Positions 37,791-61,900 of a stretch of 64,000 nt of DNA are shown in pieces. Numbering within the stretch: position 1 is the first letter of the stretch; the number at the start of each line of letters is the position of its first letter. Under the pieces are notes generated by a model, which ran no database searches, was not told where the DNA came from, and saw only the letters and a program-made list of their open reading frames with translations. The stretch spans positions 22,650,001-22,714,000 of the forward strand of contig NC_089981.1 of NCBI RefSeq assembly GCF_036417845.1, read 5' to 3'. Source of the DNA: Apteryx mantelli (lineage: Eukaryota; Chordata; Aves; Apterygiformes; Apterygidae). Made by a program: the position numbers and the translations under genes.

Positions 37791-37968
37791 CTAGTGTATG
37801 CAGCTGTCAAAGTCACAAACACAGCCACCAAATATGATTATTTCTGTAATGAGCTTTTTTCCAGGATTATCTGGATCTTGGCATGGTAGCTGGAGTTCTT
37901 TCTTTTGAAGTGCAAGTGGCATACAGCAGCCACATACTGTGGTGACCATCATGTTTTCAACATTCAAC
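37791..37968 (-). CDS. MUC6: MUC6 cystine-knot exon 2, C terminus and stop
   Basis: Acceptor ttccaaacag; 178 bases with TAG at 37791-37793. (K)LNVENMMVTTVCGCCMPLA then LQLPCQDPDNPGKKL and GGCVCDFDSCIH. CGCC, the single CQDP cysteine and the final CVC...C complete the cystine knot. The protein ends right after the last cysteine, as in MUC6. Confidence 0.96.
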
Positions 37969-40900
37969 CTGTTTGGAAGAGAGAGGACCAGTTAGGACTT
38001 CTATATAGCTTTTTAGTCTTCACTTGGGAATTGATATGATGAGTTGTGACCAGTCTTCTACAAGATATGTAGAAGCAGTTGAACCAGATGGCGCTGTGCC
38101 ATTTAGTAGTGTTGTAAAATGCAGAAGTGAAACAAAAGCAAATCCTGGGGGTTGTATGGAGGATTAACAGGCTTGTAATATTTTAAAAGGCAATATACAG
38201 ACTTGGTTATTTAAAATCTGCACTTGGTTAGCCCTGAAGTCAAAATGCTTGTTAAAGTTCTTTAATATTTGGCCCTAACATGCCAAAATGCAAGATGGAG
38301 AGGGAAAAAAAAAAAAGAAAACCTGCAAGTAGATCTCTTTTAAAGCCTTGTCACTTTTCTTTAAACAAAATATTTGAACATCATTTCCTTTTACCTCTAA
38401 GTTTAGAGGAAAGAGCACCATCCTTAGTTAAAGGGTTCTACCAATCTACACAGACAGTGCAGCAATTTGTTCTATTTCAAGTTCTGATGATGACTCCTAC
38501 TGCAGGAGGAGTTCAGGTATATTGAGCTTTTGCCTTCCTTTTTAGGGCTGAATTTTTGAAGGGCTTATAGATGTTAGGCCTCAGGCCTCACTGGAAAATA
38601 ATACAATTTGATTTCCTCATTCTCCTTAAACTTCACTGAAAATCCCAAAGTAGCATAAATATTTCAATCTTTAGCTATTCCAGTGCACAGCTTTTAGTTT
38701 GTAAAAGGTCTCTGGTACAATCTGTTAGTAAAGATGTTAAATTGTACATGATTCTTTTGCACAGTTCATGGAGGAAGGGAGGAAAAAAAACCCTTCTTTT
38801 TCTTCCTCTGAAATGTAAGTACCAGCATCTAAGCTGATGACTGAATAATGTTATTTACTGGCTGTGAGGTCAGTTAACAGATAATAAGTAATAACATTTG
38901 CACAGTTTTTGTTGCTTTAACAGGAATAAAGCACAGGTTAAATAAATGATAGCTTGAATAAACAGATAAGATTTAAATTCTCTTCCAATAGTACTGTTAT
39001 CCTTGCAGTTGCTTTTCTGACCATGTTTGGCCACACGTTTAAGAGCCACGGTGCTGCCAGACTTGCTTCTATCTAATTTTTTTTAGTCAGTGGGAAGTTG
39101 CATAAATGTGGACTAGAATTTGGCTGGAAGTGGTTCCCTTCAGCTAAGGGAACTATAAACTCCTGGGGAAAAACTCTTTGCTGTAAGAATGGCAGTAAAG
39201 CGGAGAAAAGTCTGTGTGACTTTCCATTAAAACAAACTATTTTAATCGCCACTTTTCTTAGAGATTCTGATGAATGTTAAGCCTAGAGGAGCTTTAACAA
39301 CCCTTTTGAGAACTCTCAAGATACAAAGCTGATCGCTCAGTTTTCAAAATGCTGGGGGACACCTGAGCTCACTTTGAAAGGGAAAGGTTTTTGCTTCAGG
39401 ATTAAATTAATTGTTGTAAAAACAAAATCCTTCACTGCCTTCCCTTTCTTGAACATACTATTTGCTAAGATTACTGGGAATATCATAGCAGTTCTAACTT
39501 TTTTTTCCCCTAAATAACTGTGAGCCCTGCAATAGTGCTGCAGCTGAGTTCAAGATTATTAGTTTTATTGAAGCCATGACTTCCTGTCTGAAATGGTTTC
39601 CTAACAAGCAAGCAGAACTGCACAGACTGAGAGATGCCACACCTGTAACAGTAAAATGCCCCCAAGTTACACTATCAGGAAAACCTTGTGAGGCACCTGA
39701 CACTTCTCTCACCTAAACACATAATGTAATGTTTTGGTGTCCTCTCTTGGTGGTTTGAAAATGGGTATTTAGTAGTCTAACTGACCTTTTCCATCTTCTA
39801 CGAACCTGCAGCTTTGTCACTCTATGCATTGGCCTCTGTTTTTTAAATCTTGAGGAAGTGAGAAGACATTCACTGTTTAAATTGCAAATCTCTCCCCATT
39901 TACCCCATTACTGCTCATAGATTCTTCCTAGTTAGCTGGCTTGTACTGCAGGAGTACATTGCTGGATAGATACCAAACACATTTTTCTGCTTGAATTATA
40001 AAGGGGTGGTAGTTAATAAATAATAGTGCTTAAAGAGTGCCAAATAATAAAATGAAACAATTGTAGTATCAGTGCTACAGAAGTTCTCAAATATCCTTAC
40101 TTTGCTGAAGATGGACATGATCCTTCACATCGGACCAAAGTGATGTTTACAGAACAGCCTTTGTAAGTTATTTTGTCTTCATATTCAACCTCTCTACAAA
40201 GCTCTGTCAAATGTAAAAAGAAAAAAATGATAGCAGAAATTTATCGTGGTCTTTTAGAGTGACCTTGCTGGATGCAAAAGCCTCTGTACTGAGTTTCACA
40301 GAAAACCATTCCTATTGCATGACTTCAGTGGGACTGAGGGATAATTCACAAGTCACAAGGGAATAACACAGCAAGAAAGGATTTAAACTAGACACTGAAG
40401 TTGCATAAGATAAGGGGGCTCAGAAGGACAACTAAGAAAAACCAAGCAGCTGGAAAAACAAGAGTAAGAGACTTGCCTTTAAGAATGAAGTGCAAATTAT
40501 GTCCAGGAGGAAAAAACTCTAATCCACTGATGAGAACATACAGATGCAAATAAAACGATCATCTGACTAATTCTGGTGGAATTATTTCTGGTCCATAAAC
40601 TCCTTAATAGGTTTGACATATCAGAAAAACACATATATTTGCTCTTTAAAGGAGTTATTTATTTCTAGACACACTATATAATTGTCAGTCAAAAGCTCAT
40701 ACCTAAAACACCTGTCCCCCCCCAAAAAAATTTTTTTTCTTTCCTTCTTCCTTTACTAGATACAACACATAGTGCTACTTGTTAAGTAATAATTATATGT
40801 GCCGATGTTGTCTTTTTTTCTGGTCATCTCTTGACTTAGTGAGATGTTAAGCCCTGTATTCATACGAGTTGATGGAAGGCCTAAGCTGTCTGAAGAGTTG

Positions 40901-43900
40901 AAAGATTATTGTGTTTAAAAGTTGCTGTATTAAGAATACTACAAAGGCAGTTCATGCAGGTGTACCTCTTGCACTATGTTCTTTGTGCGCACTTAGGTTC
41001 CTTGCTTGAAGAAAGATTACGGAAGGAACTTGAATGTTGGTTATTTTTCAGTTAATACTATAGTAGGAAGTTGACAGTTCATCCTTGGAAAATAAGGAAA
41101 CTAATTGGACAACAGGGTCATCTACCTGTATCTCACAATCTAAGCTTAGACCCAGACAAGCATTTAACCTCTAACCATTCATTTTGGACTGAAAATTAAA
41201 GTGTTTTGAAAGGTATTGCTAATATTCTGCAACACTTGGAAGCACCTGAATTTTTCATTTAGGTCTGAAAAATGTGCAGAGAAGAGAAAATCCTCTGGAC
41301 TCATGAAACAAATAATAGGAGGCACTGCCTGTTAACTGCAAGGAAGTAACCTGGTAAGAGTATGGTTGGGAAGGTACTGTTTTGAAGCACTTTTCTTAAA
41401 AAAGGAAAATGAACATGAATGAAACCCAAAGCAGGCACCAAAACAGATTCGGGATTATTAGGGAAAATCCTTCTGCTTACAAAGTTCATACTTAGATTCC
41501 CTTTTTGTGAGGTGAAAATTGTGGGGAGGTGGGGGGAGGAAGGTCAAAGCTAGTGCAACAACAGAAAGCACCCCTCATCACTGTGTTAGACTGCCATTTC
41601 CTCATGTGCAGCTGGTCAGCCAAGTCTAGCCTGCTCTCTGCTTAAAAAGGTTGAAATTGAGCTGTTTGGTACTGCGTTATTTGGGAATAACAACAACGGG
41701 AATGGAAGCCAACTGTTAAGCTTTAAATCTATTGAAATAAAAGCTGGGTTTCTGCATGGAAGGGAATGGGGAATAGCTAAATAGTCTAAAGCATCTTGAA
41801 AAAGGCAAAAATTTGAAGGGGGAAATATCTCATGTGTGCTTCAGGAAATTCATCTATTCCCCCACAGATTTCTGAGCTTTTTAATAGTATTATTTTTCAT
41901 AATAGAAGGGTGGCCTAGTGTGTTTAAAAAAAAAATCAAGTCACAATAACTAAATGAATAAGAGAACTGCTTTATATGAGAGGATGGATGACAGATTGTG
42001 CATTCAACTGCTTGCTCTAGGCACACTCTCAATGCACAATTCTACCATGCCTCATGGCTGATTTCTACATGCTGCACTCTGCTGACATGGTTAACAGTGA
42101 AAATGTAGATGAAACAGGTCTCTGCTACGGGTGACTAAACCTACCGTTATATAGTGATGGTCACATCACCGTCTGAGAGAAGCAGTTAGTCATAAATACA
42201 GTTTCTTTAGTTGACTTTTTGAGACCCTGTATATAAATCAGTTTTGTGGAGTAAGACTCAGCCGATGACCTAGTTGGATGAGCGTGGTGTTCTGCTCTGT
42301 GCATTTTTTGTTGCTGTTAAGGACAAGGATATGCTTCTGGTTCAGTTGATCTGATTGTAATGAAGGAATGATGGACTTCATGTGAAGGTTCAATATGATT
42401 AAGGAAATGGTATACAGGTTTGATAAAAGATTTTGGATGCTTGACTCAAAGGTAAAAAAGATGCAAATGTTTATAGTCCCCTCATTATCAAGCAGTGTAG
42501 AAAAGGGCAGACCTCCAAGAATGCCACATACCTCCCATAATTCTTGAAAAAGATGACGAAGCAAGTGAAGATAGTAACTTGCCAGAGGTGAGCTTTCTTT
42601 AGGAGGTGTGCAAACAGAAAAGGAGAACAAATACTGAAAGTAGTATGTGACAGTAAAGATGAAACAGTAATAGGGAAGAAGGCAGTATGATAAGGGTAAA
42701 GTACACTTTTCTAATAGCTTCTCCCTTGTATGTTGAACTAACCCAAAACAGAATGTAGTAAGTAGCTGAAATTCAGAAATCAACTCTTCTCTGGATCCTC
42801 TAACAGCAGTTAAAACAAACATACAAAAAAATAACCATCGAGGAAATCCTACTTCCACTCACAGATTGAAATACACACTATTCATTCTGTTTCTTTCTTT
42901 TTTTCCTTAAAAGGTTAGTCTGTATTCCAGGAGGTGTTGAATGAAAACTGTTGTCTTCACTCTTTCTTCATAGGAGTAGAAACTATGGTTCTGCTACCCA
43001 TATGGAATATCATTATAAATGCATAGGTAACTCTGTGCGTTCACACCAGCGTTCCTGATTCCTATACCATAGTTCTTAAAGTAGGATAGTTCTGTTTCAG
43101 AGCAGTAGAGAGATCAGTAGGAGTCTGTGTGCCTTTCTTTCCAAGTTATGCAGAAACTGTTGAGTGTGGTATTCCTTCAGTCACTACATGTTAGGTTATA
43201 ATTATGCACAGGAACCAAAGACAATCACTGTACCTAGAAAACTGAGAAAAAGGTACCCTGCAGAGCAGGTACCAGTCAACTTCACATGTGAAAGAAGACA
43301 ATATGAGAGAGAACGGGAGGACTGCAAGATTCAAAGGATGGTCTGCCCAGATAAATGATGTCTTAAACAGCTTAACAGGGATTTTAAGATAAGAAACATT
43401 CTTGATTCTACAGCTCTCATTCTGATCTGCATCTTGTCATCAGCCTTAACTCATCTTTCTTCATGTATACATAAGTATATATCTAGGAGCCTGCTGTTAC
43501 AAACACAAGGACATTCAGAAAGCTACTCTACAAAAAAAAAAAAGGCTGAAGAAAAAAAAAAAGAGCAAATGTATATACAGTCTTTGGTTATGACATCACT
43601 TGTAACAATTCAGAAGTATTCATACACTGATGAAAATATATGGCTAAAGGCAAAAAGATGATATAGGAAATAATACATTACCTTGTGGTACTGTTACTGA
43701 TCTAGCAGAAGCTGAGGACCTTGTGAGTATGGAAGTGAAAGAAGGAAAAGATGTGGTGCGAGTGGAGGTTGGTGCTGTGGTTTGCAACGAAGTCCTTTCA
43801 ACAGATGGGATCTCTGTAGAAGCACTAGTAATGAGAGTGGAAGCAAAAGTAACTCTTGTAGGTAAGACACTTGCTATCACAACCGGAGTGGACTTGCCAG

Positions 43901-46900
43901 ACATACTAGTAGGAATTATTATTGATGAAGTTTGGCTGTGTAAAGTAGAGGTGCTTGTAGTGTTTGGGGAGGAAGAAAAAGATGTGGTACTCCTTGTAGA
44001 CCTGAAGCTTGAAGGAGGAAGGGTTGTAGGCGTGGGCTTTGGCCTAGTCGTTGTGGGAGACTTGGTCGAGACTGTGGACGGGGCGGCAAATGGCACGTGG
44101 GTGCTGAGCGGCGTGCTGGAGGCCGAGGTGGTGGGAGGAGAGCTGGGGATCCGCGTCGTCCTTGTCAGCGGCACTTTGGGGCTGGTGGTGGGGCTGGTCG
44201 CTCTGGACACGGAGGTCTTGGAGGTGGTGCTGGGGGACGTGGCCGGGGTGGTTCTCCGGGTGGTCAGATGTGGCAGAACATGTGGCACAGTTGGCTTTTT
44301 GTGGGTGACGGCTGCCAGGAGGAAAGTGCAGCATGACTGACGGTGGTAGGGCAAGAGGCGGAAGGCAAGCGAGGCGAGCAGCTGACCCGGCACCAAGCTC
44401 CGCGTGGGGGGCAGTGACAAGAAAGGCAGGACTGGGCCCCTCCGAGTCTTGGGAGGCACAGACGGAGGAGTGGGGCAATGCCTGGGGCCGTGTCCCTCCC
44501 CATCCTCCTCCTCTCTTGGAACGCGGCGCAGGGACTGGGCCTGAGGGATGCCCACCAACAAGTGAGCTCCTCCTGCCTCTTCCTGGAGCTCCTGAGCAAG
44601 GAAGAAGAGCCTCCATGCACATGTGTGACTCCCTCCAAGCAGCATGGAGAGGGTACTGTCCGCCTGCTCCAGGCTGGGCGGGGAAGGCTCTCTGGCAGAG
44701 GCCTGTGGCCCAGGGAAAGACCCGGAAGGGTCAAGGGCAGAGGACGCAGTCAGGGGCAACGTGCGGGCCAGATCCAGGACCCCTCCAGGTCCAAGGAGTC
44801 CCAGTGCCAAAGGCAAGGGGGAATGGAGCACAGCTACACTAACCAGAAGCCCCCACGGAACGTGCTGCTGGGGAGAGGAGGGCGCACGCTGGAAAGAGCA
44901 GGCAGAGCAGCAGGAGGGCAGGAGCAAGACTTACCGGGATGCGATGGGCTCGGCGGTGTTGAGGACACAGTTGAGGAGGGGGAAGAAGCAGACGACGGGA
45001 GGGGGCTCGTTTTGGCCGTGGAGGGTGCGGAGGACTCAGCTGGGAGAGTCTCTGTTGAAACACTGGTCGTTGCGGGAGAGGCTCTGGACGTTAGCGTTGT
45101 AGGCGTGGGCTTTGGCCTAGTCGTTGTGGGAGACTTGGTCGAGACTGTGGACGGGGCGGCAAATGGCACGTGGGTGCTGAGCGGCGTGCTGGAGGCCGAG
45201 GTGGTGGGAGGAGAGCTGGGGATCCGCGTCGTCCTTGTCAGCGGCACTTTGGGGCTGGTGGTGGGGCTGGTCGCTCTGGACACGGAGGTCTTGGAGGTGG
45301 TGCTGGGGGACGTGGCCGGGGTGGTTCTCCGGGTGGTCACAGGCGGCACGGTTGGCTCTTTGGGGGTGACGGCTGCCAGGAGGAAAGTGCAGCATGACTG
45401 ACGGTGGTAGGGCAAGAGGCGGAAGGCAAGCGAGGCGAGCAGCTGACCCGGTACCAAGCTCCGCGTGGGGGGCAGTGACAAGAAAGGCAGGACTGGGCCC
45501 CTCCGAGTCTTGGGAGGCACAGACGGAGGAGTGGGGCAATGCCTGGGGCCGAGTCCCTCCCCAACCTCCTCCTCTCTTGGAACGCGGCGCAGGGACTGGG
45601 CCTGAGGGATGCCCACCAACAAGTGAGCTCCTCCTGCCTCTTCCTGGAGCTCCTGAGCAAGGAAGAAGAGCCTCCATGCACATGTGTGACTCCCTCCAAG
45701 CAGCATGGAGAGGGTACTGTCCGCCTGCTCCAGGCTGGGCGGGGAAGGCTCTCTGGCAGAGGCCTGTGGCCCAGGGAAAGACCCGGAAGGGTCAAGGGCA
45801 GAGGACGCAGTCAGGGGCAACGTGCGGGCCAGATCCAGGACCCCTCCAGGTCCAAGGAGTCCCAGTGCCAAAGGCAAGGGGGAATGGAGCACAGCTACAC
45901 TAACCAGAAGCCCCCACGGAACGTGCTGCTGGGGAGAGGAGGGCGCACGCTGGAAAGAGCAGGCAGAGCAGCAGGAGGGCAGGAGCAAGACTTACCGGGA
46001 TGCGATGGGCTCGGCGGTGTTGAGGACACAGTTGAGGAGGGGGAAGAAGCAGACGACGGGAGGGGGCTCGTTTTGGCCGTGGAGGGTGCGGAGGACTCAG
46101 CTGGGAGAGTCTCTGTTGAAACACTGGTCGTTGCGGGAGAGGCTCTGGACGTTAGCGTTGTAGGCGTGGGCTTTGGCCTAGTCGTTGTGGGAGACTTGGT
46201 CGAGACTGTGGACGGGGCGGCAAATGGCACGTGGGTGCTGAGCGGCGTGCTGGAGGCCGAGGTGGTGGGAGGAGAGCTGGGGATCCGCGTCGTCCTTGTC
46301 AGCGGCACTTTGGGGCTGGTGGTGGGGCTGGTCGCTCTGGACACGGAGGTCTTGGAGGTGGTGCTGGGGGACGTGGCCGGGGTGGTTCTCCGGGTGGTCA
46401 CATGTGGCAGAACATGTGGCACAGTTGGCTTTTTGTGGGTGACGGCTGCCAGGAGGAAAGTGCAGCATGACTGACGGTGGTAGGGCAAGAGGCGGAAGGC
46501 AAGCGAGGCGAGCAGCTGACCCGGCACCAAGCTCCGCGTGGGGGGCAGTGACAAGAAAGGCAGGACTGGGCCCCTCCGAGTCTTGGGAGGCACAGACGGA
46601 GGAGTGGGGCAATGCCTGGGGCCGTGTCCCTCCCCATCCTCCTCCTCTCTTGGAACGCGGCGCAGGGACTGGGCCTGAGGGATGCCCACCAACAAGTGAG
46701 CTCCTCCTGCCTCTTCCTGGAGCTCCTGAGCAAGGAAGAAGAGCCTCCATGCACATGTGTGACTCCCTCCAAGCAGCATGGAGAGGGTACTGTCCGCCTG
46801 CTCCAGGCTGGGCGGGGAAGGCTCTCTGGCAGAGGCCTGTGGCCCAGGGAAAGACCCGGAAGGGTCAAGGGCAGAGGACGCAGTCAGGGGCAACGTGCGG

Positions 46901-49900
46901 GCCAGATCCAGGACCCCTCCAGGTCCAAGGAGTCCCAGTGCCAAAGGCAAGGGGGAATGGAGCACAGCTACACTAACCAGAAGCCCCCACGGAACGTGCT
47001 GCTGGGGAGAGGAGGGCGCACGCTGGAAAGAGCAGGCAGAGCAGCAGGAGGGCAGGAGCAAGACTTACCGGGATGCGATGGGCTCGGCGGTGTTGAGGAC
47101 ACAGTTGAGGAGGGGGAAGAAGCAGACGACGGGAGGGGGCTCGTTTTGGCCGTGGAGGGTGCGGAGGACTCAGCTGGGAGAGTCTCTGTTGAAACACTGG
47201 TCGTTGCGGGAGAGGCTCTGGACGTTAGCGTTGTAGGCGTGGGCTTTGGCCTAGTCGTTGTGGGAGACTTGGTCGAGACTGTGGACGGGGCGGCAAATGG
47301 CACGTGGGTGCTGAGCGGCGTGCTGGAGGCCGAGGTGGTGGGAGGAGAGCTGGGGATCCGCGTCGTCCTTGTCAGCGGCACTTTGGGGCTGGTGGTGGGG
47401 CTGGTCGCTCTGGACACGGAGGTCTTGGAGGTGGTGCTGGGGGACGTGGCCGGGGTGGTTCTCCGGGTGGTCAGATGTGGCAGAACATGTGGCACGGTTG
47501 GCTTTTTGTGGGTGACGGCTGCCAGGAGGAAAGTGCAGCATGACTGACGGTGGTAGGGCAAGAGGCGGAAGGCAAGCGAGGCGAGCAGCTGACCCGGCAC
47601 CAAGCTCCGCGTGGGGGGCAGTGACAAGAAAGGCAGGACTGGGCCCCTCCGAGTCTTGGGAGGCACAGACGGAGGAGTGGGGCAATGCCTGGGGCCGAGT
47701 CCCTCCCCAACCTCCTCCTCTCTTGGAACGCGGCGCAGGGACTGGGCCTGAGGGATGCCCACCAACAAGTGAGCTCCTCCTGCCTCTTCCTGGAGCTCCT
47801 GAGCAAGGAAGAAGAGCCTCCATGCACATGTGTGACTCCCTCCAAGCAGCATGGAGAGGGTACTGTCCGCCTGCTCCAGGCTGGGCGGGGAAGGCTCTCT
47901 GGCAGAGGCCTGTGGCCCAGGGAAAGACCCGGAAGGGTCAAGGGCAGAGGACGCAGTCAGGGGCAACGTGCGGGCCAGATCCAGGACCCCTCCAGGTCCA
48001 AGGAGTCCCAGTGCCAAAGGCAAGGGGGAATGGAGCACAGCTACACTAACCAGAAGCCCCCACGGAACGTGCTGCTGGGGAGAGGAGGGCGCACGCTGGA
48101 AAGAGCAGGCAGAGCAGCAGGAGGGCAGGAGCAAGACTTACCGGGATGCGATGGGCTCGGCGGTGTTGAGGACACAGTTGAGGAGGGGGAAGAAGCAGAC
48201 GACGGGAGGGGGCTCGTTTTGGCCGTGGAGGGTGCGGAGGACTCAGCTGGGAGAGTCTCTGTTGAAACACTGGTCGTTGCGGGAGAGGCTCTGGACGTTA
48301 GCGTTGTAGGCGTGGGCTTTGGCCTAGTCGTTGTGGGAGACTTGGTCGAGACTGTGGACGGGGCGGCAAATGGCACGTGGGTGCTGAGCGGCGTGCTGGA
48401 GGCCGAGGTGGTGGGAGGAGAGCTGGGGATCCGCGTCGTCCTTGTCAGCGGCACTTTGGGGCTGGTGGTGGGGCTGGTCGCTCTGGACACGGAGGTCTTG
48501 GAGGTGGTGCTGGGGGACGTGGCCGGGGTGGTTCTCCGGGTGGTCACATGTGGCAGAACATGTGGCACAGTTGGCTTTTTGTGGGTGACGGCTGCCAGGA
48601 GGAAAGTGCAGCATGACTGACGGTGGTAGGGCAAGAGGCGGAAGGCAAGCGAGGCGAGCAGCTGACCCGGCACCAAGCTCCGCGTGGGGGGCAGTGACAA
48701 GAAAGGCAGGACTGGGCCCCTCCGAGTCTTGGGAGGCACAGACGGAGGAGTGGGGCAATGCCTGGGGCCGTGTCCCTCCCCATCCTCCTCCTCTCTTGGA
48801 ACGCGGCGCAGGGACTGGGCCTGAGGGATGCCCACCAACAAGTGAGCTCCTCCTGCCTCTTCCTGGAGCTCCTGAGCAAGGAAGAAGAGCCTCCATGCAC
48901 ATGTGTGACTCCCTCCAAGCAGCATGGAGAGGGTACTGTCCGCCTGCTCCAGGCTGGGCGGGGAAGGCTCTCTGGCAGAGGCCTGTGGCCCAGGGAAAGA
49001 CCCGGAAGGGTCAAGGGCAGAGGACGCAGTCAGGGGCAACGTGCGGGCCAGATCCAGGACCCCTCCAGGTCCAAGGAGTCCCAGTGCCAAAGGCAAGGGG
49101 GAATGGAGCACAGCTACACTAACCAGAAGCCCCCACGGAACGTGCTGCTGGGGAGAGGAGGGCGCACGCTGGAAAGAGCAGGCAGAGCAGCAGGAGGGCA
49201 GGAGCAAGACTTACCGGGATGCGATGGGCTCGGCGGTGTTGAGGACACAGTTGAGGAGGGGGAAGAAGCAGACGACGGGAGGGGGCTCGTTTTGGCCGTG
49301 GAGGGTGCGGAGGACTCAGCTGGGAGAGTCTCTGTTGAAACACTGGTCGTTGCGGGAGAGGCTCTGGACGTTAGCGTTGTAGGCGTGGGCTTTGGCCTAG
49401 TCGTTGTGGGAGACTTGGTCGAGACTGTGGACGGGGCGGCAAATGGCACGTGGGTGCTGAGCGGCGTGCTGGAGGCCGAGGTGGTGGGAGGAGAGCTGGG
49501 GATCCGCGTCGTCCTTGTCAGCGGCACTTTGGGGCTGGTGGTGGGGCTGGTCGCTCTGGACACGGAGGTCTTGGAGGTGGTGCTGGGGGACGTGGCCGGG
49601 GTGGTTCTCCGGGTGGTCAGATGTGGCAGAACATGTGGCACAGTTGGCTTTTTGTGGGTGACGGCTGCCAGGAGGAAAGTGCAGCATGACTGACGGTGGT
49701 AGGGCAAGAGGCGGAAGGCAAGCGAGGCGAGCAGCTGACCCGGCACCAAGCTCCGCGTGGGGGGCAGTGACAAGAAAGGCAGGACTGGGCCCCTCCGAGT
49801 CTTGGGAGGCACAGACAGAGGAGTGGGGCAATGCCTGGGGCCGTGTCCCTCCCCATCCTCCTCCTCTCTTGGAACGCGGCGCAGGGACTGGGCCTGAGGG

Positions 49901-52900
49901 ATGCCCACCAACAAGTGAGCTCCTCCTGCCTCTTCCTGGAGCTCCTGAGCAAGGAAGAAGAGCCTCCATGCACATGTGTGACTCCCTCCAAGCAGCATGG
50001 AGAGGGTACTGTCCGCCTGCTCCAGGCTGGGCGGGGAAGGCTCTCTGGCAGAGGCCTGTGGCCCAGGGAAAGACCCGGAAGGGTCAAGGGCAGAGGACGC
50101 AGTCAGGGGCAACGTGCGGGCCAGATCCAGGACCCCTCCAGGTCCAAGGAGTCCCAGTGCCAAAGGCAAGGGGGAATGGAGCACAGCTACACTAACCAGA
50201 AGCCCCCACGGAACGTGCTGCTGGGGAGAGGAGGGCGCACGCTGGAAAGAGCAGGCAGAGCAGCAGGAGGGCAGGAGCAAGACTTACCGGGATGCGATGG
50301 GCTCGGCGGTGTTGAGGACACAGTTGAGGAGGGGGAAGAAGCAGACGACGGGAGGGGGCTCGTTTTGGCCGTGGAGGGTGCGGAGGACTCAGCTGGGAGA
50401 GTCTCTGTTGAAACACTGGTCGTTGCGGGAGAGGCTCTGGACGTTAGCGTTGTAGGCGTGGGCTTTGGCCTAGTCGTTGTGGGAGACTTGGTCGAGACTG
50501 TGGACGGGGCGGCAAATGGCACGTGGGTGCTGAGCGGCGTGCTGGAGGCCGAGGTGGTGGGAGGAGAGCTGGGGATCCGCGTCGTCCTTGTCAGCGGCAC
50601 TTTGGGGCTGGTGGTGGGGCTGGTCGCTCTGGACACGGAGGTCTTGGAGGTGGTGCTGGGGGACGTGGCCGGGGTGGTTCTCCGGGTGGTCACAGGCGGC
50701 ACGGTTGGCTCTTTGGGGGTGACGGCTGCCAGGAGGAAAGTGCAGCATGACTGACAGTGGTAGGGCAAGAGGCGGAAGGCAAGCGAGGCGAGCAGCTGAC
50801 CCGGCACCAAGCTCCGCGTGGGGGGCAGTGACAAGAAAGGCAGGACTGGGCCCCTCCGAGTCTTGGGAGGCACAGACGGAGGAGTGGGGCAATGCCTGGG
50901 GCCGTGTCCCTCCCCATCCTCCTCCTCTCTTGGAACGCGGCGCAGGGACTGGGCCTGAGGGATGCCCACCAACAAGTGAGCTCCTCCTGCCTCTTCCTGG
51001 AGCTCCTGAGCAAGGAAGAAGAGCCTCCATGCACATGTGTGACTCCCTCCAAGCAGCATGGAGAGGGTACTGTCCGCCTGCTCCAGGCTGGGCGGGGAAG
51101 GCTCTCTGGCAGAGGCCTGTGGCCCAGGGAAAGACCCGGAAGGGTCAAGGGCAGAGGACGCAGTCAGGGGCAACGTGCGGGCCAGATCCAGGACCCCTCC
51201 AGGTCCAAGGAGTCCCAGTGCCAAAGGCAAGGGGGAATGGAGCACAGCTACACTAACCAGAAGCCCCCACGGAACGTGCTGCTGGGGAGAGGAGGGCGCA
51301 CGCTGGAAAGAGCAGGCAGAGCAGCAGGAGGGCAGGAGCAAGACTTACCGGGATGCGATGGGCTCGGCGGTGTTGAGGACACAGTTGAGGAGGGGGAAGA
51401 AGCAGACGACGGGAGGGGGCTCGTTTTGGCCGTGGAGGGTGCGGAGGACTCAGCTGGGAGAGTCTCTGTTGAAACACTGGTCGTTGCGGGAGAGGCTCTG
51501 GACGTTAGCGTTGTAGGCGTGGGCTTTGGCCTAGTCGTTGTGGGAGACTTGGTCGAGACTGTGGACGGGGCGGCAAATGGCACGTGGGTGCTGAGCGGCG
51601 TGCTGGAGGCCGAGGTGGTGGGAGGAGAGCTGGGGATCCGCGTCGTCCTTGTCAGCGGCACTTTGGGGCTGGTGGTGGGGCTGGTCGCTCTGGACACGGA
51701 GGTCTTGGAGGTGGTGCTGGGGGACGTGGCCGGGGTGGTTCTCCGGGTGGTCAGATGTGGCAGAACATGTGGCACAGTTGGCTTTTTGTGGGTGACGGCT
51801 GCCAGGAGGAAAGTGCAGCATGACTGACGGTGGTAGGGCAAGAGGCGGAAGGCAAGCGAGGCGAGCAGCTGACCCGGCACCAAGCTCCGCGTGGGGGGCA
51901 GTGACAAGAAAGGCAGGACTGGGCCCCTCCGAGTCTTGGGAGGCACAGACGGAGGAGTGGGGCAATGCCTGGGGCCGAGTCCCTCCCCAACCTCCTCCTC
52001 TCTTGGAACGCGGCGCAGGGACTGGGCCTGAGGGATGCCCACCAACAAGTGAGCTCCTCCTGCCTCTTCCTGGAGCTCCTGAGCAAGGAAGAAGAGCCTC
52101 CATGCACATGTGTGACTCCCTCCAAGCAGCATGGAGAGGGTACTGTCCGCCTGCTCCAGGCTGGGCGGGGAAGGCTCTCTGGCAGAGGCCTGTGGCCCAG
52201 GGAAAGACCCGGAAGGGTCAAGGGCAGAGGACGCAGTCAGGGGCAACGTGCGGGCCAGATCCAGGACCCCTCCAGGTCCAAGGAGTCCCAGTGCCAAAGG
52301 CAAGGGGGAATGGAGCACAGCTACACTAACCAGAAGCCCCCACGGAACGTGCTGCTGGGGAGAGGAGGGCGCACGCTGGAAAGAGCAGGCAGAGCAGCAG
52401 GAGGGCAGGAGCAAGACTTACCGGGATGCGATGGGCTCGGCGGTGTTGAGGACACAGTTGAGGAGGGGGAAGAAGCAGACGACGGGAGGGGGCTCGTTTT
52501 GGCCGTGGAGGGTGCGGAGGACTCAGCTGGGAGAGTCTCTGTTGAAACACTGGTCATTGCGGGAGAGGCTCTGGACGTTAGCGTTGTAGGCGTGGGCTTT
52601 GGCCTAGTCGTTGTGGGAGACTTGGTCGAGACTGTGGACGGGGCGGCAAATGGCACGTGGGTGCTGAGCGGCGTGCTGGAGGCCGAGGTGGTGGGAGGAG
52701 AGCTGGGGATCCGCGTCGTCCTTGTCAGCGGCACTTTGGGGCTGGTGGTGGGGCTGGTCGCTCTGGACACGGAGGTCTTGGAGGTGGTGCTGGGGGACGT
52801 GGCCGGGGTGGTTCTCCGGGTGGTCAGATGTGGCAGAACATGTGGCACAGTTGGCTTTTTGTGGGTGACGGCTGCCAGGAGGAAAGTGCAGCATGACTGA

Positions 52901-55900
52901 CGGTGGTAGGGCAAGAGGCGGAAGGCAAGCGAGGCGAGCAGCTGACCCGGCACCAAGCTCCGCGTGGGGGGCAGTGACAAGAAAGGCAGGACTGGGCCCC
53001 TCCGAGTCTTGGGAGGCACAGACGGAGGAGTGGGGCAATGCCTGGGGCCGTGTCCCTCCCCATCCTCCTCCTCTCTTGGAACGCGGCGCAGGGACTGGGC
53101 CTGAGGGATGCCCACCAACAAGTGAGCTCCTCCTGCCTCTTCCTGGAGCTCCTGAGCAAGGAAGAAGAGCCTCCATGCACATGTGTGACTCCCTCCAAGC
53201 AGCATGGAGAGGGTACTGTCCGCCTGCTCCAGGCTGGGCGGGGAAGGCTCTCTGGCAGAGGCCTGTGGCCCAGGGAAAGACCCGGAAGGGTCAAGGGCAG
53301 AGGACGCAGTCAGGGGCAACGTGCGGGCCAGATCCAGGACCCCTCCAGGTCCAAGGAGTCCCAGTGCCAAAGGCAAGGGGGAATGGAGCACAGCTACACT
53401 AACCAGAAGCCCCCACGGAACGTGCTGCTGGGGAGAGGAGGGCGCACGCTGGAAAGAGCAGGCAGAGCAGCAGGAGGGCAGGAGCAAGACTTACCGGGAT
53501 GCGATGGGCTCGGCGGTGTTGAGGACACAGTTGAGGAGGGGGAAGAAGCAGACGACGGGAGGGGGCTCGTTTTGGCCGTGGAGGGTGCGGAGGACTCAGC
53601 TGGGAGAGTCTCTGTTGAAACACTGGTCGTTGCGGGAGAGGCTCTGGACGTTAGCGTTGTAGGCGTGGGCTTTGGCCTAGTCGTTGTGGGAGACTTGGTC
53701 GAGACTGTGGACGGGGCGGCAAATGGCACGTGGGTGCTGAGCGGCGTGCTGGAGGCCGAGGTGGTGGGAGGAGAGCTGGGGATCCGCGTCGTCCTTGTCA
53801 GCGGCACTTTGGGGCTGGTGGTGGGGCTGGTCGCTCTGGACACGGAGGTCTTGGAGGTGGTGCTGGGGGACGTGGCCGGGGTGGTTCTCCGGGTGGTCAC
53901 AGGCGGCACGGTTGGCTCTTTGGGGGTGACGGCTGCCAGGAGGAAAGTGCAGCATGACTGACGGTGGTAGGGCAAGAGGCGGAAGGCAAGCGAGGCGAGC
54001 AGCTGACCCGGCACCAAGCTCCGCGTGGGGGGCAGTGACAAGAAAGGCAGGACTGGGCCCCTCCGAGTCTTGGGAGGCACAGACGGAGGAGTGGGGCAAT
54101 GCCTGGGGCCGTGTCCCTCCCCATCCTCCTCCTCTCTTGGAACGCGGCGCAGGGACTGGGCCTGAGGGATGCCCACCAACAAGTGAGCTCCTCCTGCCTC
54201 TTCCTGGAGCTCCTGAGCAAGGAAGAAGAGCCTCCATGCACATGTGTGACTCCCTCCAAGCAGCATGGAGAGGGTACTGTCCGCCTGCTCCAGGCTGGGC
54301 GGGGAAGGCTCTCTGGCAGAGGCCTGTGGCCCAGGGAAAGACCCGGAAGGGTCAAGGGCAGAGGACGCAGTCAGGGGCAACGTGCGGGCCAGATCCAGGA
54401 CCCCTCCAGGTCCAAGGAGTCCCAGTGCCAAAGGCAAGGGGGAATGGAGCACAGCTACACTAACCAGAAGCCCCCACGGAACGTGCTGCTGGGGAGAGGA
54501 GGGCGCACGCTGGAAAGAGCAGGCAGAGCAGCAGGAGGGCAGGAGCAAGACTTACCGGGATGCGATGGGCTCGGCGGTGTTGAGGACACAGTTGAGGAGG
54601 GGGAAGAAGCAGACGACGGGAGGGGGCTCGTTTTGGCCGTGGAGGGTGCGGAGGACTCAGCTGGGAGAGTCTCTGTTGAAACACTGGTCGTTGCGGGAGA
54701 GGCTCTGGACGTTAGCGTTGTAGGCGTGGGCTTTGGCCTAGTCGTTGTGGGAGACTTGGTCGAGACTGTGGACGGGGCGGCAAATGGCACGTGGGTGCTG
54801 AGCGGCGTGCTGGAGGCCGAGGTGGTGGGAGGAGAGCTGGGGATCCGCGTCGTCCTTGTCAGCGGCACTTTGGGGCTGGTGGTGGGGCTGGTCGCTCTGG
54901 ACACGGAGGTCTTGGAGGTGGTGCTGGGGGACGTGGCCGGGGTGGTTCTCCGGGTGGTCAGATGTGGCAGAACATGTGGCACAGTTGGCTTTTTGTGGGT
55001 GACGGCTGCCAGGAGGAAAGTGCAGCATGACTGACGGTGGTAGGGCAAGAGGCGGAAGGCAAGCGAGGCGAGCAGCTGACCCGGCACCAAGCTCCGCGTG
55101 GGGGGCAGTGACAAGAAAGGCAGGACTGGGCCCCTCCGAGTCTTGGGAGGCACAGACGGAGGAGTGGGGCAATGCCTGGGGCCGAGTCCCTCCCCAACCT
55201 CCTCCTCTCTTGGAACGCGGCGCAGGGACTGGGCCTGAGGGATGCCCACCAACAAGTGAGCTCCTCCTGCCTCTTCCTGGAGCTCCTGAGCAAGGAAGAA
55301 GAGCCTCCATGCACATGTGTGACTCCCTCCAAGCAGCATGGAGAGGGTACTGTCCGCCTGCTCCAGGCTGGGCGGGGAAGGCTCTCTGGCAGAGGCCTGT
55401 GGCCCAGGGAAAGACCCGGAAGGGTCAAGGGCAGAGGACGCAGTCAGGGGCAACGTGCGGGCCAGATCCAGGACCCCTCCAGGTCCAAGGAGTCCCAGTG
55501 CCAAAGGCAAGGGGGAATGGAGCACAGCTACACTAACCAGAAGCCCCCACGGAACGTGCTGCTGGGGAGAGGAGGGCGCACGCTGGAAAGAGCAGGCAGA
55601 GCAGCAGGAGGGCAGGAGCAAGACTTACCGGGATGCGATGGGCTCGGCGGTGTTGAGGACACAGTTGAGGAGGGGGAAGAAGCAGACGACGGGAGGGGGC
55701 TCGTTTTGGCCGTGGAGGGTGCGGAGGACTCAGCTGGGAGAGTCTCTGTTGAAACACTGGTCATTGCGGGAGAGGCTCTGGACGTTAGCGTTGTAGGCGT
55801 GGGCTTTGGCCTAGTCGTTGTGGGAGACTTGGTCGAGACTGTGGACGGGGCGGCAAATGGCACGTGGGTGCTGAGCGGCGTGCTGGAGGCCGAGGTGGTG

Positions 55901-58900
55901 GGAGGAGAGCTGGGGATCCGCGTCGTCCTTGTCAGCGGCACTTTGGGGCTGGTGGTGGGGCTGGTCGCTCTGGACACGGAGGTCTTGGAGGTGGTGCTGG
56001 GGGACGTGGCCGGGGTGGTTCTCCGGGTGGTCACATGTGGCAGAACATGTGGCACAGTTGGCTTTTTGTGGGTGACGGCTGCCAGGAGGAAAGTGCAGCA
56101 TGACTGACGGTGGTAGGGCAAGAGGCGGAAGGCAAGCGAGGCGAGCAGCTGACCCGGCACCAAGCTCCGCGTGGGGGGCAGTGACAAGAAAGGCAGGACT
56201 GGGCCCCTCCGAGTCTTGGGAGGCACAGACGGAGGAGTGGGGCAATGCCTGGGGCCGTGTCCCTCCCCATCCTCCTCCTCTCTTGGAACGCGGCGCAGGG
56301 ACTGGGCCTGAGGGATGCCCACCAACAAGTGAGCTCCTCCTGCCTCTTCCTGGAGCTCCTGAGCAAGGAAGAAGAGCCTCCATGCACATGTGTGACTCCC
56401 TCCAAGCAGCATGGAGAGGGTACTGTCCGCCTGCTCCAGGCTGGGCGGGGAAGGCTCTCTGGCAGAGGCCTGTGGCCCAGGGAAAGACCCGGAAGGGTCA
56501 AGGGCAGAGGACGCAGTCAGGGGCAACGTGCGGGCCAGATCCAGGACCCCTCCAGGTCCAAGGAGTCCCAGTGCCAAAGGCAAGGGGGAATGGAGCACAG
56601 CTACACTAACCAGAAGCCCCCACGGAACGTGCTGCTGGGGAGAGGAGGGCGCACGCTGGAAAGAGCAGGCAGAGCAGCAGGAGGGCAGGAGCAAGACTTA
56701 CCGGGATGCGATGGGCTCGGCGGTGTTGAGGACACAGTTGAGGAGGGGGAAGAAGCAGACGACGGGAGGGGGCTCGTTTTGGCCGTGGAGGGTGCGGAGG
56801 ACTCAGCTGGGAGAGTCTCTGTTGAAACACTGGTCATTGCGGGAGAGGCTCTGGACGTTAGCGTTGTAGGCGTGGGCTTTGGCCTAGTCGTTGTGGGAGA
56901 CTTGGTCGAGACTGTGGACGGGGCGGCAAATGGCACGTGGGTGCTGAGCGGCGTGCTGGAGGCCGAGGTGGTGGGAGGAGAGCTGGGGATCCGCGTCGTC
57001 CTTGTCAGCGGCACTTTGGGGCTGGTGGTGGGGCTGGTCGCTCTGGACACGGAGGTCTTGGAGGTGGTGCTGGGGGACGTGGCCGGGGTGGTTCTCCGGG
57101 TGGTCACAGGCGGCACGGTTGGCTCTTTGGGGGTGACGGCTGCCAGGAGGAAAGTGCAGCATGACTGACGGTGGTAGGGCAAGAGGCGGAAGGAGAGTGA
57201 GGTGGGTACTTCCCAGGTAGAGGCACCGGGTGGGGGGCAGTCACAGGAAGGGCGGCATTGGGCCCCACTAAGTCTTTAGAGAAGAAAAAGAGGGGCTGGG
57301 GCCCTCAGTATCTCCCATCCCATTGTTTTTTTTGCCGAAAAATCCATTTGGTCTGAATTGTGCACCCCCAATAATTGAATTCCATCTTCATCTTTCTCGA
57401 GGCCCCAAGTGCAGCATACAAGCTTTCAATGTTGTGTGTGCCCAAGGAACATCAGATAATGCATTATCAGCCTGCTCCAGACTGTGCTGGAAAGCATCAA
57501 TTGGAGAGTCGAGGCTATTGGACAGACAGGCATAGGCCTTGAAGGACTCTTAGCTCTCTCTGAACCAGAGCACTCACCTGTTACTACTTTACTAGTTGGA
57601 GTCTTAGCTCTGGTTGGCTCCCTTGCTACAAAGAAAGGGATGAGAGAAAAGAATGGTTGAGTCCTGGGAAAATGCCTAGGGAAAGCATGTTGTGGCACCT
57701 CCTCAAAGGAGGGTGTTCTTGTTGGCATCAAGAAGACCTGGATGTGGGGAGCCCGACTGGTCTGAGTGTGAGAGGTGTAGCTGGAGTGTGAATGTACATC
57801 TGCCTGCCCACCCTCCACTGCTGATTTTTCCATAGCCTTGGTCAGCATATGGCATCCTTAGCCAGGTGGCAGAGAGTTGGCTTTTTTTGGCCAGTGATTG
57901 TCAAGGGTGTGTCAGGACCTGGGCATCCCTTGGTCAAGAGCATGTCTTGGCCTCTTGTATTTCCCCAAACTGTGCTGAACTTCCCAGAACTGTGTTGAAC
58001 TGGAAACAGGAGATGACTTTCCCCTCTCATTGCCTTCTCTTTGCTATTTTGAGTGTTCTAAGGACAGCACTGCAAGGGGAGGGGGTGGGTATTAGCTAGC
58101 ATCTGGCTGCTGAGTGCAAGGGCAGGAGCTGACAGGGGTCTCTATCCCAAAGAAGGCCTGTGTCCCAGGGCAAACCCCTGAAAGGTCAAGGGCAGAGGAC
58201 GCAGTCAGGGGCAACGTGCGGACCAGATCCAGGACCCTTCCAAGTCCAAGGAGTCCCAGTGCCAAAGGCAAGGGGGAATGGAGCACAGCTACACTAACCA
58301 GAAGCCCCCACGGAACGTGCTGCTGGGGAGAGGAGGGCGCACGCTGGAAAGAGCAGGCAGAGCAGCAGGAGGGCAGGAGCAAGACTTACCGGGATGCGAT
58401 GGGCTCGGCGGTGTTGAGGACACAGTTGAGGAGGGGGAAGAAGCAGACGACGGGAGGGGGCTCGTTTTGGCCGTGGAGGGTGCGGAGGACTCAGCTGGGA
58501 GAGTCTCTGTTGAAACACTGGTCATTGCGGGAGAGGCTCTGGACGTTAGCGTTGTAGGCGTGGGCTTTGGCCTAGTCGTTGTGGGAGACTTGGTCGAGAC
58601 TGTGGACGGGGCGGCAAATGGCACGTGGGTGCTGAGCGGCGTGCTGGAGGCCGAGGTGGTGGGAGGAGAGCTGGGGATCCGCGTCGTCCTTGTCAGCGGC
58701 ACTTTGGGGCTGGTGGTGGGGCTGGTCGCTCTGGACACGGAGGTCTTGGAGGTGGTGCTGGGGGACGTGGCCGGGGTGGTTCTCCGGGTGGTCACAGGCG
58801 GCACGGTTGGCTCTTTGGGGGTGACGGCTGCCAGGAGGAAAGTGCAGCATGACTGACGGTGGTAGGGCAAGAGGCGGAAGGCAAGCGAGGCGAGCAGCTG

Positions 58901-61900
58901 ACCCGGCACCAAGCTCCGCGTGGGGGGCAGTGACAAGAAAGGCAGGACTGGGCCCCTCCGAGTCTTGGGAGGCACAGACGGAGGAGTGGGGCAATGCCTG
59001 GGGCCGTGTCCCTCCCCATCCTCCTCCTCTCTTGGAACGCGGCGCAGGGACTGGGCCTGAGGGATGCCCACCAACAAGTGAGCTCCTCCTGCCTCTTCCT
59101 GGAGCTCCTGAGCAAGGAAGAAGAGCCTCCATGCACATGTGTGACTCCCTCCAAGCAGCTGGTAGAGAGTACGGTGTGCCTGCTCCAGGCTGGGTGAGGA
59201 AGTACCATGAGATTGGCTAAGGTAGGCACTGACATAAGCCATGGGCAAGTCTTATCACCCACCCAACTGGAGCGCTAACCTATTTGGGGCTCATTGGTGT
59301 AGAGCGCGTCTTGGGCTCTTTGCAAAGAAGGCAAGGATGGGTAAGAATGGTTGAGACTTGGGAAGGTGCTTTGTCATAGTAGAAAGTGACACTTCCTCAA
59401 AGGATGCTGTCATTATTGGCACAAGAATACTTGTGTGCGGGCACCCCAACAGGACCGGGTGGGAGAGATGTGGACTGGGGGAGAGTGCGCACCTTCCCTC
59501 CCCTTGTAGCTGACTTCCCTGCATTGTGTACCAGCCTCTGGCATCACTTGCTAGCCCAAGCAAAACAGGTTGTGATACTGCTGCCACAGAGCTGTCCTTG
59601 CTGGCATATGGAGAACTTGACACTCTAAGGCATAATTTCCTTTTTTTTTGGTACGAACTGTGCTGAAATTTTTGTGGGATTTTGTATGCCAGAGATAAAA
59701 GAAGTCCTTATCCATTAACAGAGATATTTGATTACTGATATCTGGAAGTGCCTAAATATACTCAAGAAACATTGTTCTCTCAATATTTTTCTTTGGCAAT
59801 TTAGGATGTCTATCATATTTCTGGGAAAATTTTTGTGATAATTGTGATACTGAGTTATTTTTCATTATTGCACCTTATGCATATGAAACTGGTGAAGTCA
59901 TTTTATCAAGCCAGAAAGGGTATTGCTTACCTCAGAAGCACGTATTAGGACATATATCAGTGCTTAAGTACTAGTTTAGTCACTGACTTAAACTAACCTG
60001 TTGAAGGCGAAGATGTCTCAGGTGTAGTAGTAGTGCTTTCCTCTCCTGCTGTGTAAAGGTAGAAGAGATTAAATGTGTGAATTAAAACATATTAAGAATA
60101 TTCCAAATATAGCAAATTTCAGATCAGAAGATAAATAAACTGCATTCAAAGTATTGTGTTAATTAGTGAGATATTCCTGAAAATGCTTACTATAATATTT
60201 CAGTGTTAAACTTCACATCAAAAGAATTAAACAATGATAAGAAATCAATGCACTTCATAATAATCATGAACATGAGCATGTTTTTGATGCCTTTGTTATG
60301 ATTTTCATGCTTAAGGGCAGCCTCATTTTTCAGGGATAATGGAAACATGTTTTCTGTATGTAAGTGAGGTCACTAACTGTCCTGGGACACAGGTTAGAAT
60401 TGTGTAACATGAAAAAAAATTGGTCTTAAGTTTTTTTACGTCTGCATGAAACTCCAAACTGTGCAGCTGGAGTCTAGCCATAACATTATCTAATCAGCCA
60501 GGTTTTCATAGCAGTACACTGTATGATAATAAATCATGAGATAAAATAATAAAAAATATATCTTAAAAAGGGAATTGCTAAGTAGAGTTCATTAGCTAGA
60601 TCCTCTTCCAGATGCTCCCTTTGTTTAAGAAAGATGTTGAATGCATCTGGGATATACATCTCTGCTGGGGTGGCCCCTCATGCAGATCAGAACACCAGCA
60701 TACTTTCAGAAACACCCAAACTTTGAAAAGTACTGACATTTACACTGAAGGCAATTTTTAATCTTGCTAAATAAATCAATCATGATGATCCAACTTCTGT
60801 ATTTTAGCACTCCCTAGCCTAATCCCTTTTTTAAAATAAGTTATTTTCTGTCCATTGTTTATCAACCAAAGTTTTACATAATAGAAGTACAGCAATAAGG
60901 TTCTTTCAAAGGAGAATTATGCCTGGATTAATCAAGAGATATTAGGAAAAATATCTTCCTTGAGAATACACAGTGGTTTTAGTATTATTTTCTAGTTACT
61001 GTAGAGAAAAAGGGTGAATATATAGGTTTCTCCTCACCACATGGCATGCATTGTCCCTTCTCATGGTCAAAGTATTCATCATGAGAACAGTTGTAACAGC
61101 CTGAAGAAAGAGGAAGATAATTTTGTTTTACATTTCTCAGAGAACAGCATTTCATTTGTACCATTTATAATCTAACTTCTTACACTTCTGTTATTAAAAA
61201 ATTGTATCAATCGTAACACCATATACTTAGGTAAGCACTTCCAACGTCATCCTCTGAAGAAGGGTCTGCATACATAATAACTTTTTTGTTTTCTTCAACT
61301 ATATCCATTGTCTAATAAAAATACTATCTCTCCTTCCACATATTTTCTTACCTAAGAACAGCATATACTCTTGACTGGTACAAATTAGAGGATTCCTCTT
61401 CAAGATAGGCTGAGCTCAATACAAAGCTAGATGTAATACAGGTACTATATCAATTATGTATTAACATTGTAGTTGTAATGTAAAGATTAGTAAAAACTGC
61501 CTCAAAGATAACATTAATTAGAACATTACTATCTAACCGTGGCATGACTGATTAAAACAACAGCAGTGAAAATAATTATCTTATTGTTTCCTGGTTTACA
61601 ACAGTATAGATTATTACCTTCAATGTTGACATATTTGTAGTTTTGATTTGGACAGTTACACGGTCTATAGTGCCAGGTGCAGTTGTCACTGCTGTAGTCA
61701 TAAGAATAAGCATTCTCACTTCCTGATTTTTTATGAGAATTGTAATAGTCACAATAGACAGCTTAAAAAAAAAGGGGAGGCAAAAGAGGAGAAAAGTTTA
61801 AATTTTTCAGTTATTGACATATGCTTTCTCAAAGGCTTAGGAACAGGGAGGACAAAATTCATCAATAGTGTTTGAGCTAAAAATTTTGTCATTGAAGTAA

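Follow-up and report, generated by a model that had tools for sequence, protein, structure and literature searches.

The MUC6 Locus and Its Repeat Array

We analyzed a stretch of 64,000 nucleotides (nt) from the bird Apteryx mantelli (contig NC_089981.1, hereafter C4; C4:22650001-22714000), which we call the window and whose own numbering we use unless a contig is named. The minus strand of the window carries MUC6, a stomach mucin gene and the orthologue of the gene for chicken beta-ovomucin. Between positions 44935 and 58827, the domain of this mucin that is rich in proline, threonine and serine (PTS) is spread over 13 near-identical exons that are separated by introns. Very probably, the PTS domain of this bird's MUC6 is built as an array of exon-intron units, all of whose exons are spliced in and whose copies are homogenised by exchange.

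Counted by plus-strand coordinates, array exons 1-5 lie at 44935-45372, 45996-46445, 47069-47518, 48142-48591 and 49215-49664, exons 6-10 at 50288-50725, 51349-51798, 52422-52871, 53495-53932 and 54556-55005, and exons 11-13 at 55629-56078, 56702-57139 and 58390-58827, all on the minus strand. Eight of them measure 450 nt and five 438 nt, so that each length is divisible by 3; every exon is of phase 1-1, and the phase-1 frame is free of stop codons in all 13. Within one length class, the exons differ from each other by 0-3 bases. The splice sites are equally uniform: 30 nt of acceptor context and 15 nt of donor context are identical in 13 of 13 exons, with TTCCTCCTGGCAG as the common acceptor and CCG/GTAAGT as the common donor.

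The similarity extends through the introns. Eleven of the 12 introns between array exons are 623 nt long (for instance, 45373-45995) and show 0-4 mutual differences; the twelfth, at 57140-58389, comprises 1,250 nt. Between the array and the last PTS exon, there is an additional intron of 623 nt (44312-44934). One exon and one intron together form the repeat unit, which measures 1,073 or 1,061 bp and encodes 150 or 146 residues. When a single unit was used as a query, the 11 other full units matched it with 98.2-99.9% identity, and the 13th exon together with part of its intron did so with 96.4% identity over 686 bases. Variable columns number 23 in an alignment of 12 units, the intron 44312-44934 included, and 12 of these columns belong to a single 12-nt indel. 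Such near identity between the units excludes a chance resemblance.

Splice Sites and Reading Frame of the Array

Donor and acceptor sites in the region 43600-60100 (731 GT and 1,073 AG sites) were scored with simple position matrices. The donors of all 13 array exons occupy ranks 2-14 of the 731 GT sites. Rank 1 is held by the donor of an extra PTS exon of 48 nt situated in the long intron (57578-57625, minus strand, phase 1-1, REPTRAKTPTSKVVT), which is in frame and whose acceptor ranks 14th among the 1,073 AG sites. On its 5' side, the array is adjoined by a PTS exon of 51 nt (59998-60048, minus strand, phase 1-1, GEESTTTTPETSSPST), and a cysteine-rich exon of 63 nt (61038-61100, minus strand, phase 1-1) is found between the exons for the D3 assembly and those for the PTS domain. 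The last PTS exon (43682-44311, minus strand, 630 nt) is chimeric; its portion 44020-44311 is unit sequence (99.3% identity), its portion 43682-44019 is other PTS sequence with a guanine plus cytosine (GC) content of 44%, and the two share one frame. This exon joins the first of two cystine-knot exons in frame.

The 17 exons that lead from behind D3 up to the last of the PTS domain (61038-61100, 59998-60048, the 13 array exons, the 48-nt exon and 43682-44311) were joined to the cystine-knot pair (40101-40203 and 37791-37968). The result is one reading frame of 2,286 codons, whose only stop codon is the terminal one. The PTS part of the called exons amounts to 2,173 residues, of which 66% are Ser, Thr or Pro and none is a cysteine. 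If all 13 units and the 48-nt exon are removed, the frame stays open and comprises 340 codons.

Several observations weigh against these exon calls. The acceptors of the array exons and of the last PTS exon attain ranks of 29-42 among the 1,073 AG sites by our simple score. They are outranked by 28 AG sites, two of them within each of the twelve 623-nt introns (e.g., 45652 and 45928), and usage of these inner acceptors would make the exon 280 or 556 nt longer and throw it out of frame. Moreover, the minus strand of three tandem units contains open runs of 228-389 codons, and the plus strand runs of 322-331 codons; at 64% GC, long open frames come cheaply, and openness alone is therefore weak evidence for exons. 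Alternatively, one might regard the array as a non-coding or decayed GC-rich satellite within a MUC6 intron that contains no exons at all, a view to which the high GC content across the entire unit, intron included (exon, 0.640; intron, 0.642), would conform. We consider this to be extremely improbable. In the exon frame of the two units that we examined, Ser, Thr and Pro make up 0.55-0.80 of each 20-residue window except the first (0.40-0.45); beyond the splice sites, the fraction is mostly under 0.5, and the other frames reach 0.60-0.65 in single windows only. A satellite would likewise not be expected to lack stops in 13 of 13 exons, to fit the frame of both flanking exons and of the cystine knot, or to be joined to other PTS sequence in one frame, as it is in the last exon.

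Read-through of the unit intron was considered as well and discarded: upon retention, a stop is met 33 codons past the exon (two cases tried), and none of the six frames of the unit intron is free of stops. Nor did we find the intron to share ancestry with the exon, as one intron compared with one exon gave no blastn match at an E-value of 1e-3. Rfam models produced no match at gathering score for a structured RNA in 43000-64000.

An earlier note on this DNA had described the interval 43682-58827 as thirteen near-identical exons of 438 or 450 bases, each with its own intron. Our data bear out the exons with their good splice sites, the genomic nature of the repeat unit, the symmetric phase that preserves the frame upon skipping, and the estimate of about 2,170 PTS residues. 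The description requires correction in that the intron 57140-58389 departs from the 623-nt pattern, that the 48-nt exon had been missed, and that position 43682 marks the end of a 14th exon, which is only in part unit sequence.

Array Edges, Probable Homogenisation and GC Content

Homology to the unit ends on the left inside the last exon (at 44020) and on the right within the intron that precedes the first array exon in the direction of transcription; on the minus strand, the unit-like portion of this intron covers 58828-59202, and array homology stops at about 59202. Within the long intron on the same strand, the ends are unit-like (82.7% identity over 139 bases at one end and 96.4% at the other), and the middle is older and diverged. 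A diverged relic at 59343-59471 (strand unassigned) shares 72% identity over 130 positions with the copy at 57649-57778 in the long intron; these two sequences stem from an earlier generation of repeats.

In a large part of the array, the length classes follow each other as 438-450-450 triplets, and the best self-match distance in the range of 300-4,500 bases is 3,207, that is, three units. We read this triplet pattern, together with the self-match at 3,207 bases and the diverged copies at the edges, as the outcome of repeated unequal exchange; variants in a three-unit pattern and diverged edge copies are what unequal exchange and conversion predict. Across the 1.5-Gb assembly, an exact 40-mer taken from the unit was found at 13 places, every one within the array, and its reversed control at 0, which argues against a dispersed repeat. 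A DNA search of the assembly with the whole unit listed nothing elsewhere; it is a weak test, as it also missed the full units of the array itself and recovered merely two edge pieces. Tandem Repeats Finder, whose longest period is 500, did not list the array.

Units this similar are hard to assemble, and the true array might be longer, shorter or partly collapsed, particularly since, aside from the 12-nt indel block, the units differ by few bases per kilobase. That the array as we see it is an artefact of this kind nevertheless seems unlikely to us, given that the window is without Ns, that the edges are clearly diverged, and that unit-specific variants are arranged in the triplet pattern. 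Edges and variants argue against a simple collapse and leave the copy number unfixed.

The GC content of the unit contrasts with that of its surroundings, which is 0.38 in 1-43000 and about 0.34-0.38 in the flanks; the diverged copy in the long intron has 0.51. Because exon and intron of the unit do not differ in this respect, the GC content of the unit is not accounted for by the protein, and we infer that GC-biased gene conversion is behind it. The ratio of observed to expected CpG in 44312-57139 is 0.86 for the exon and 0.36 for the intron, versus 0.16 in 1-43000. The high GC and CpG values of 44312-57139 suggest biased conversion or low methylation in the germline.

Identity of the Gene and Its Neighborhood

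The assignment to MUC6, already made in the earlier note, is upheld because the mucin is followed on its 3' side by an AP-2 alpha gene, exons with VWD and C8 domains (D3) lie on its 5' side, the gene terminates in a cystine knot, and VWD-containing genes on the opposite strand follow beyond. The AP-2 alpha gene occupies 11022-30611 of the plus strand (e.g., exons 11022-11264 and 30447-30611). Its exons match Adaptin_N with 59.6 bits, above the cut-off, and Alpha_adaptinC2 with 25.7 bits, below the cut-off of 27.6; the top solved chain is AP-2 alpha-2, a match that does not tell alpha-1 and alpha-2 apart. We name the gene AP2A2 by this best match and by synteny, presuming that AP2A2 is placed next to MUC6 in the order AP2A2 - MUC6 - MUC2. 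Chicken MUC6 is described as beta-ovomucin, and MUC6 and MUC2 as neighbors in the order MUC6 - MUC2 with opposite polarity (PMC1552070). The alpha- and beta-globin exons of this genome likewise point to a bird: among natural single-globin chains, they match hemoglobin chains of birds best. Linked human di-alpha chains rank first in one comparison, where the matches of two stretches add up.

The D3 exons, encoding the end of the VWD domain and C8, fall on the minus strand within 62578-63964 (open stretches 63644-63964 and 62578-62811, with exon ends not set). Both Pfam matches exceed their cut-offs (VWD, 26.2 bits; C8, 57.8 bits), and the closest solved chain is Mucin-2, residues 967-1046. Further upstream in the direction of transcription, past the right end of the window, minus-strand VWD sites at C4:22716660, 22724369 and 22734122 score 44.4, 31.3 and 32.4 bits, all above the cut-off and each partial; the middle one was read through one TGA. 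As expected for MUC6, D1-D2-D3 assemblies hence precede the PTS domain, D1 and D2 being known as VWD sites with their exons unassembled. Plus-strand VWD sites begin at C4:22796720, beyond the minus-strand trio.

At the 3' end of the gene, the first cystine-knot exon (40101-40203) and the second, which includes the stop codon (37791-37968), are both encoded on the minus strand. Joined, they provide 93 residues that match DAN with 23.6 bits, above the cut-off of 22, along with weak matches to the knots of VWF and norrin (E of about 0.02). This assignment is weakened by a Cys_knot score of 17.6 bits for the joined exons, below the cut-off of 24, and by the fact that each exon on its own stays below the Pfam cut-offs; the joined pair scores better than either. 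In keeping with MUC6, no CysD domain is encoded in the called PTS exons, a statement that does not extend to the 3.5-kb intron ahead of the cystine knot, which was not scanned. Among the matches listed (150 of 184 candidates scored), no VWD site that would indicate a D4 assembly follows the PTS exons toward the 3' end.

Relation to Known Mucin Architectures

The novelty of the array was overstated in the earlier note, which drew its contrast with mammals alone; serial PTS exons are on record for chicken Muc13 (PMC1552070) and chicken MUC2 (PMC3549977). The MUC6 array is a clean further case of the one-repeat-per-exon mucin domains already known in birds. In chicken Muc13, each PTS repeat is described as having a nearly identical exon of its own, with at least 12 repeats and support from expressed sequence tags (PMC1552070). 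The defining trait of Muc13-type domains, near-identical PTS exons split by introns, is found in the MUC6 array, where a single exon likewise corresponds to a single PTS repeat. The two mucins differ in that chicken Muc13 is a transmembrane protein with 20-residue repeats, whereas MUC6 is gel-forming, has units of 146 or 150 residues, and its repeat identity extends through the introns. Chicken MUC2 is also gel-forming, belongs to the same cluster and has its PTS repeats across serial exons: ten PTS repeats of 69 residues are reported over exons 32-45 (or 32-44), with genomic elements that recur around exons 32-39 and 41-44 (PMC3549977). Its ten shorter units form three blocks split by CysD, in contrast to the one array of 13 units without CysD in MUC6.

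Human MUC6 offers the comparison at the orthologous position of the protein. Its 24 units, most of them 507 bp (169 residues), are all reported in exon 31 with its 12,294 bp (PMC6269512), in keeping with the earlier note's statement that the mammalian repeats share one large exon. The size of the human unit is similar to the 438 or 450 nt of the bird exon, but no introns separate the human units, whereas each bird unit has one. An intron loss or gain between human and bird MUC6 is possible. The bird array shows that MUC6 is not everywhere built with one giant exon as in humans. Human MUC16 resembles the array in that its repeat unit is genomic and divided by introns. It is a membrane mucin with five exons per repeat, and these exons vary between repeats. 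An isoform of human MUC16 with five fewer repeats is reported, and whether splicing is its cause is disputed (PMC3431878, PMC10829539). Among the matches listed from the open-access literature, we found no description of a multi-exon PTS domain in a bird MUC6.

Predicted Expression and Length Variation of MUC6

The proposed functioning of the array is straightforward. All 13 exons would normally be included by ordinary constitutive splicing, and usage of all 13 copies appears likely from the sequence. The spliced array would contribute about 2,170 residues per monomer that are presumably O-glycosylated, flanked on one side by the D assemblies of the N-terminal end, which would link monomers, and on the other by the C-terminal cystine knot, through which they would dimerise. 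Unequal exchange and gene conversion between units would keep the copies alike and, at the same time, change their number. With a symmetric phase 1-1 cassette, any gain or loss of a unit should keep the frame and alter only the length of the glycosylated rod; occasional skipping of an exon would likewise stay in frame. Frame-preserving change of copy number through recombination is well supported and the best-supported mechanism; for chicken Muc13, length variation through recombination and splicing was proposed in 2006 (PMC1552070).

Splicing might have a larger part in this process if the identical cassettes were skipped in varying numbers, either by tissue or by chance, so that one bird would produce MUC6 of many lengths. 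The uniform phase 1-1 of the PTS exons and the 340 open codons that are left when the 13 units and the 48-nt exon are skipped would permit this, and the idea has a precedent in the proposal just mentioned for Muc13. A cecal-tonsil transcript of chicken MUC2 without exon 42, shorter by 495 bp and in frame, is reported from within the PTS domain (PMC3549977). This event, however, is described as relying on splice sites inside exons 41 and 43 and is no clean exon skip, and Eimeria-infected chicks are reported to have shown no further event (PMC3549977). In the MUC6 array, identical splice sites in every copy offer no sequence cue for a choice between them, and the GC content of exon and intron is equal. 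Equal GC content of exons and introns favors intron retention over exon skipping. Tuning of MUC6 length by splicing therefore strikes us as quite unlikely, and we favor constitutive inclusion of all exons in an array whose length changes by recombination.

An array of near-identical in-frame cassettes provides a simple route to changes in length and is a natural test of whether all such exons are used. Its product, MUC6 (beta-ovomucin), is reported to play a part in the gelling of thick egg white (PMC4136736).

The Neighboring MUC2 Gene and Other Loci

In the same genome, MUC2 (named by its position and by CysD) follows the same design at C4:22824269-22829971, with tandem, near-identical exon-intron units of phase 1-1. 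Three CysD-PTS exons of 555 nt show 0 differences, the three 1,152-nt introns that follow them show 0-1 differences, and a fourth exon is a variant of 582 nt; the exons match Mucin2_WxxW with 82.4 bits. The MUC2 units thus differ from the 13 PTS exons of MUC6 by their CysD content, by their dimensions (555 plus 1,152 nt) and by their number of three identical copies and one variant. The MUC6 unit has no DNA match in 20 kb of the MUC2 region. With the design shared by MUC6 and MUC2 in one bird, exon arrays and giant exons become comparable within one cluster.

As in MUC6, the GC content of MUC2 is raised in exon and intron alike (0.57, against about 0.34-0.38 in the flanks). This elevation over the whole unit, intron included (0.64 in MUC6), points to GC-biased conversion and not to protein selection. 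One may extend this into a broader scenario, in which ongoing exchange keeps both arrays alike, GC-biased conversion acts on the DNA of the units rather than selection on the protein, length varies by copy number between individuals and by exon skipping within one, and human MUC6 has lost, or bird MUC6 gained, the introns. Taken in its entirety, we judge this combination to be improbable.

Further along, the MUC2 stretch C4:22832086-22836873 contains an open run of 1,596 codons that is made of 84-residue tandem repeats and resembles a giant exon. Multi-exon and apparent giant-exon styles are found side by side in this stretch. On another contig (C9:15276922-15308494), VWD matches with identical scores recur every ~7.83 kb and constitute a tandem array of VWD-domain exons of recent origin, perhaps belonging to an FCGBP-like or zonadhesin-like gene, names that are a guess. 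On a third contig (C67:190000-310000), VWD matches on both strands recur every ~43.4 kb and represent a larger tandem duplication.

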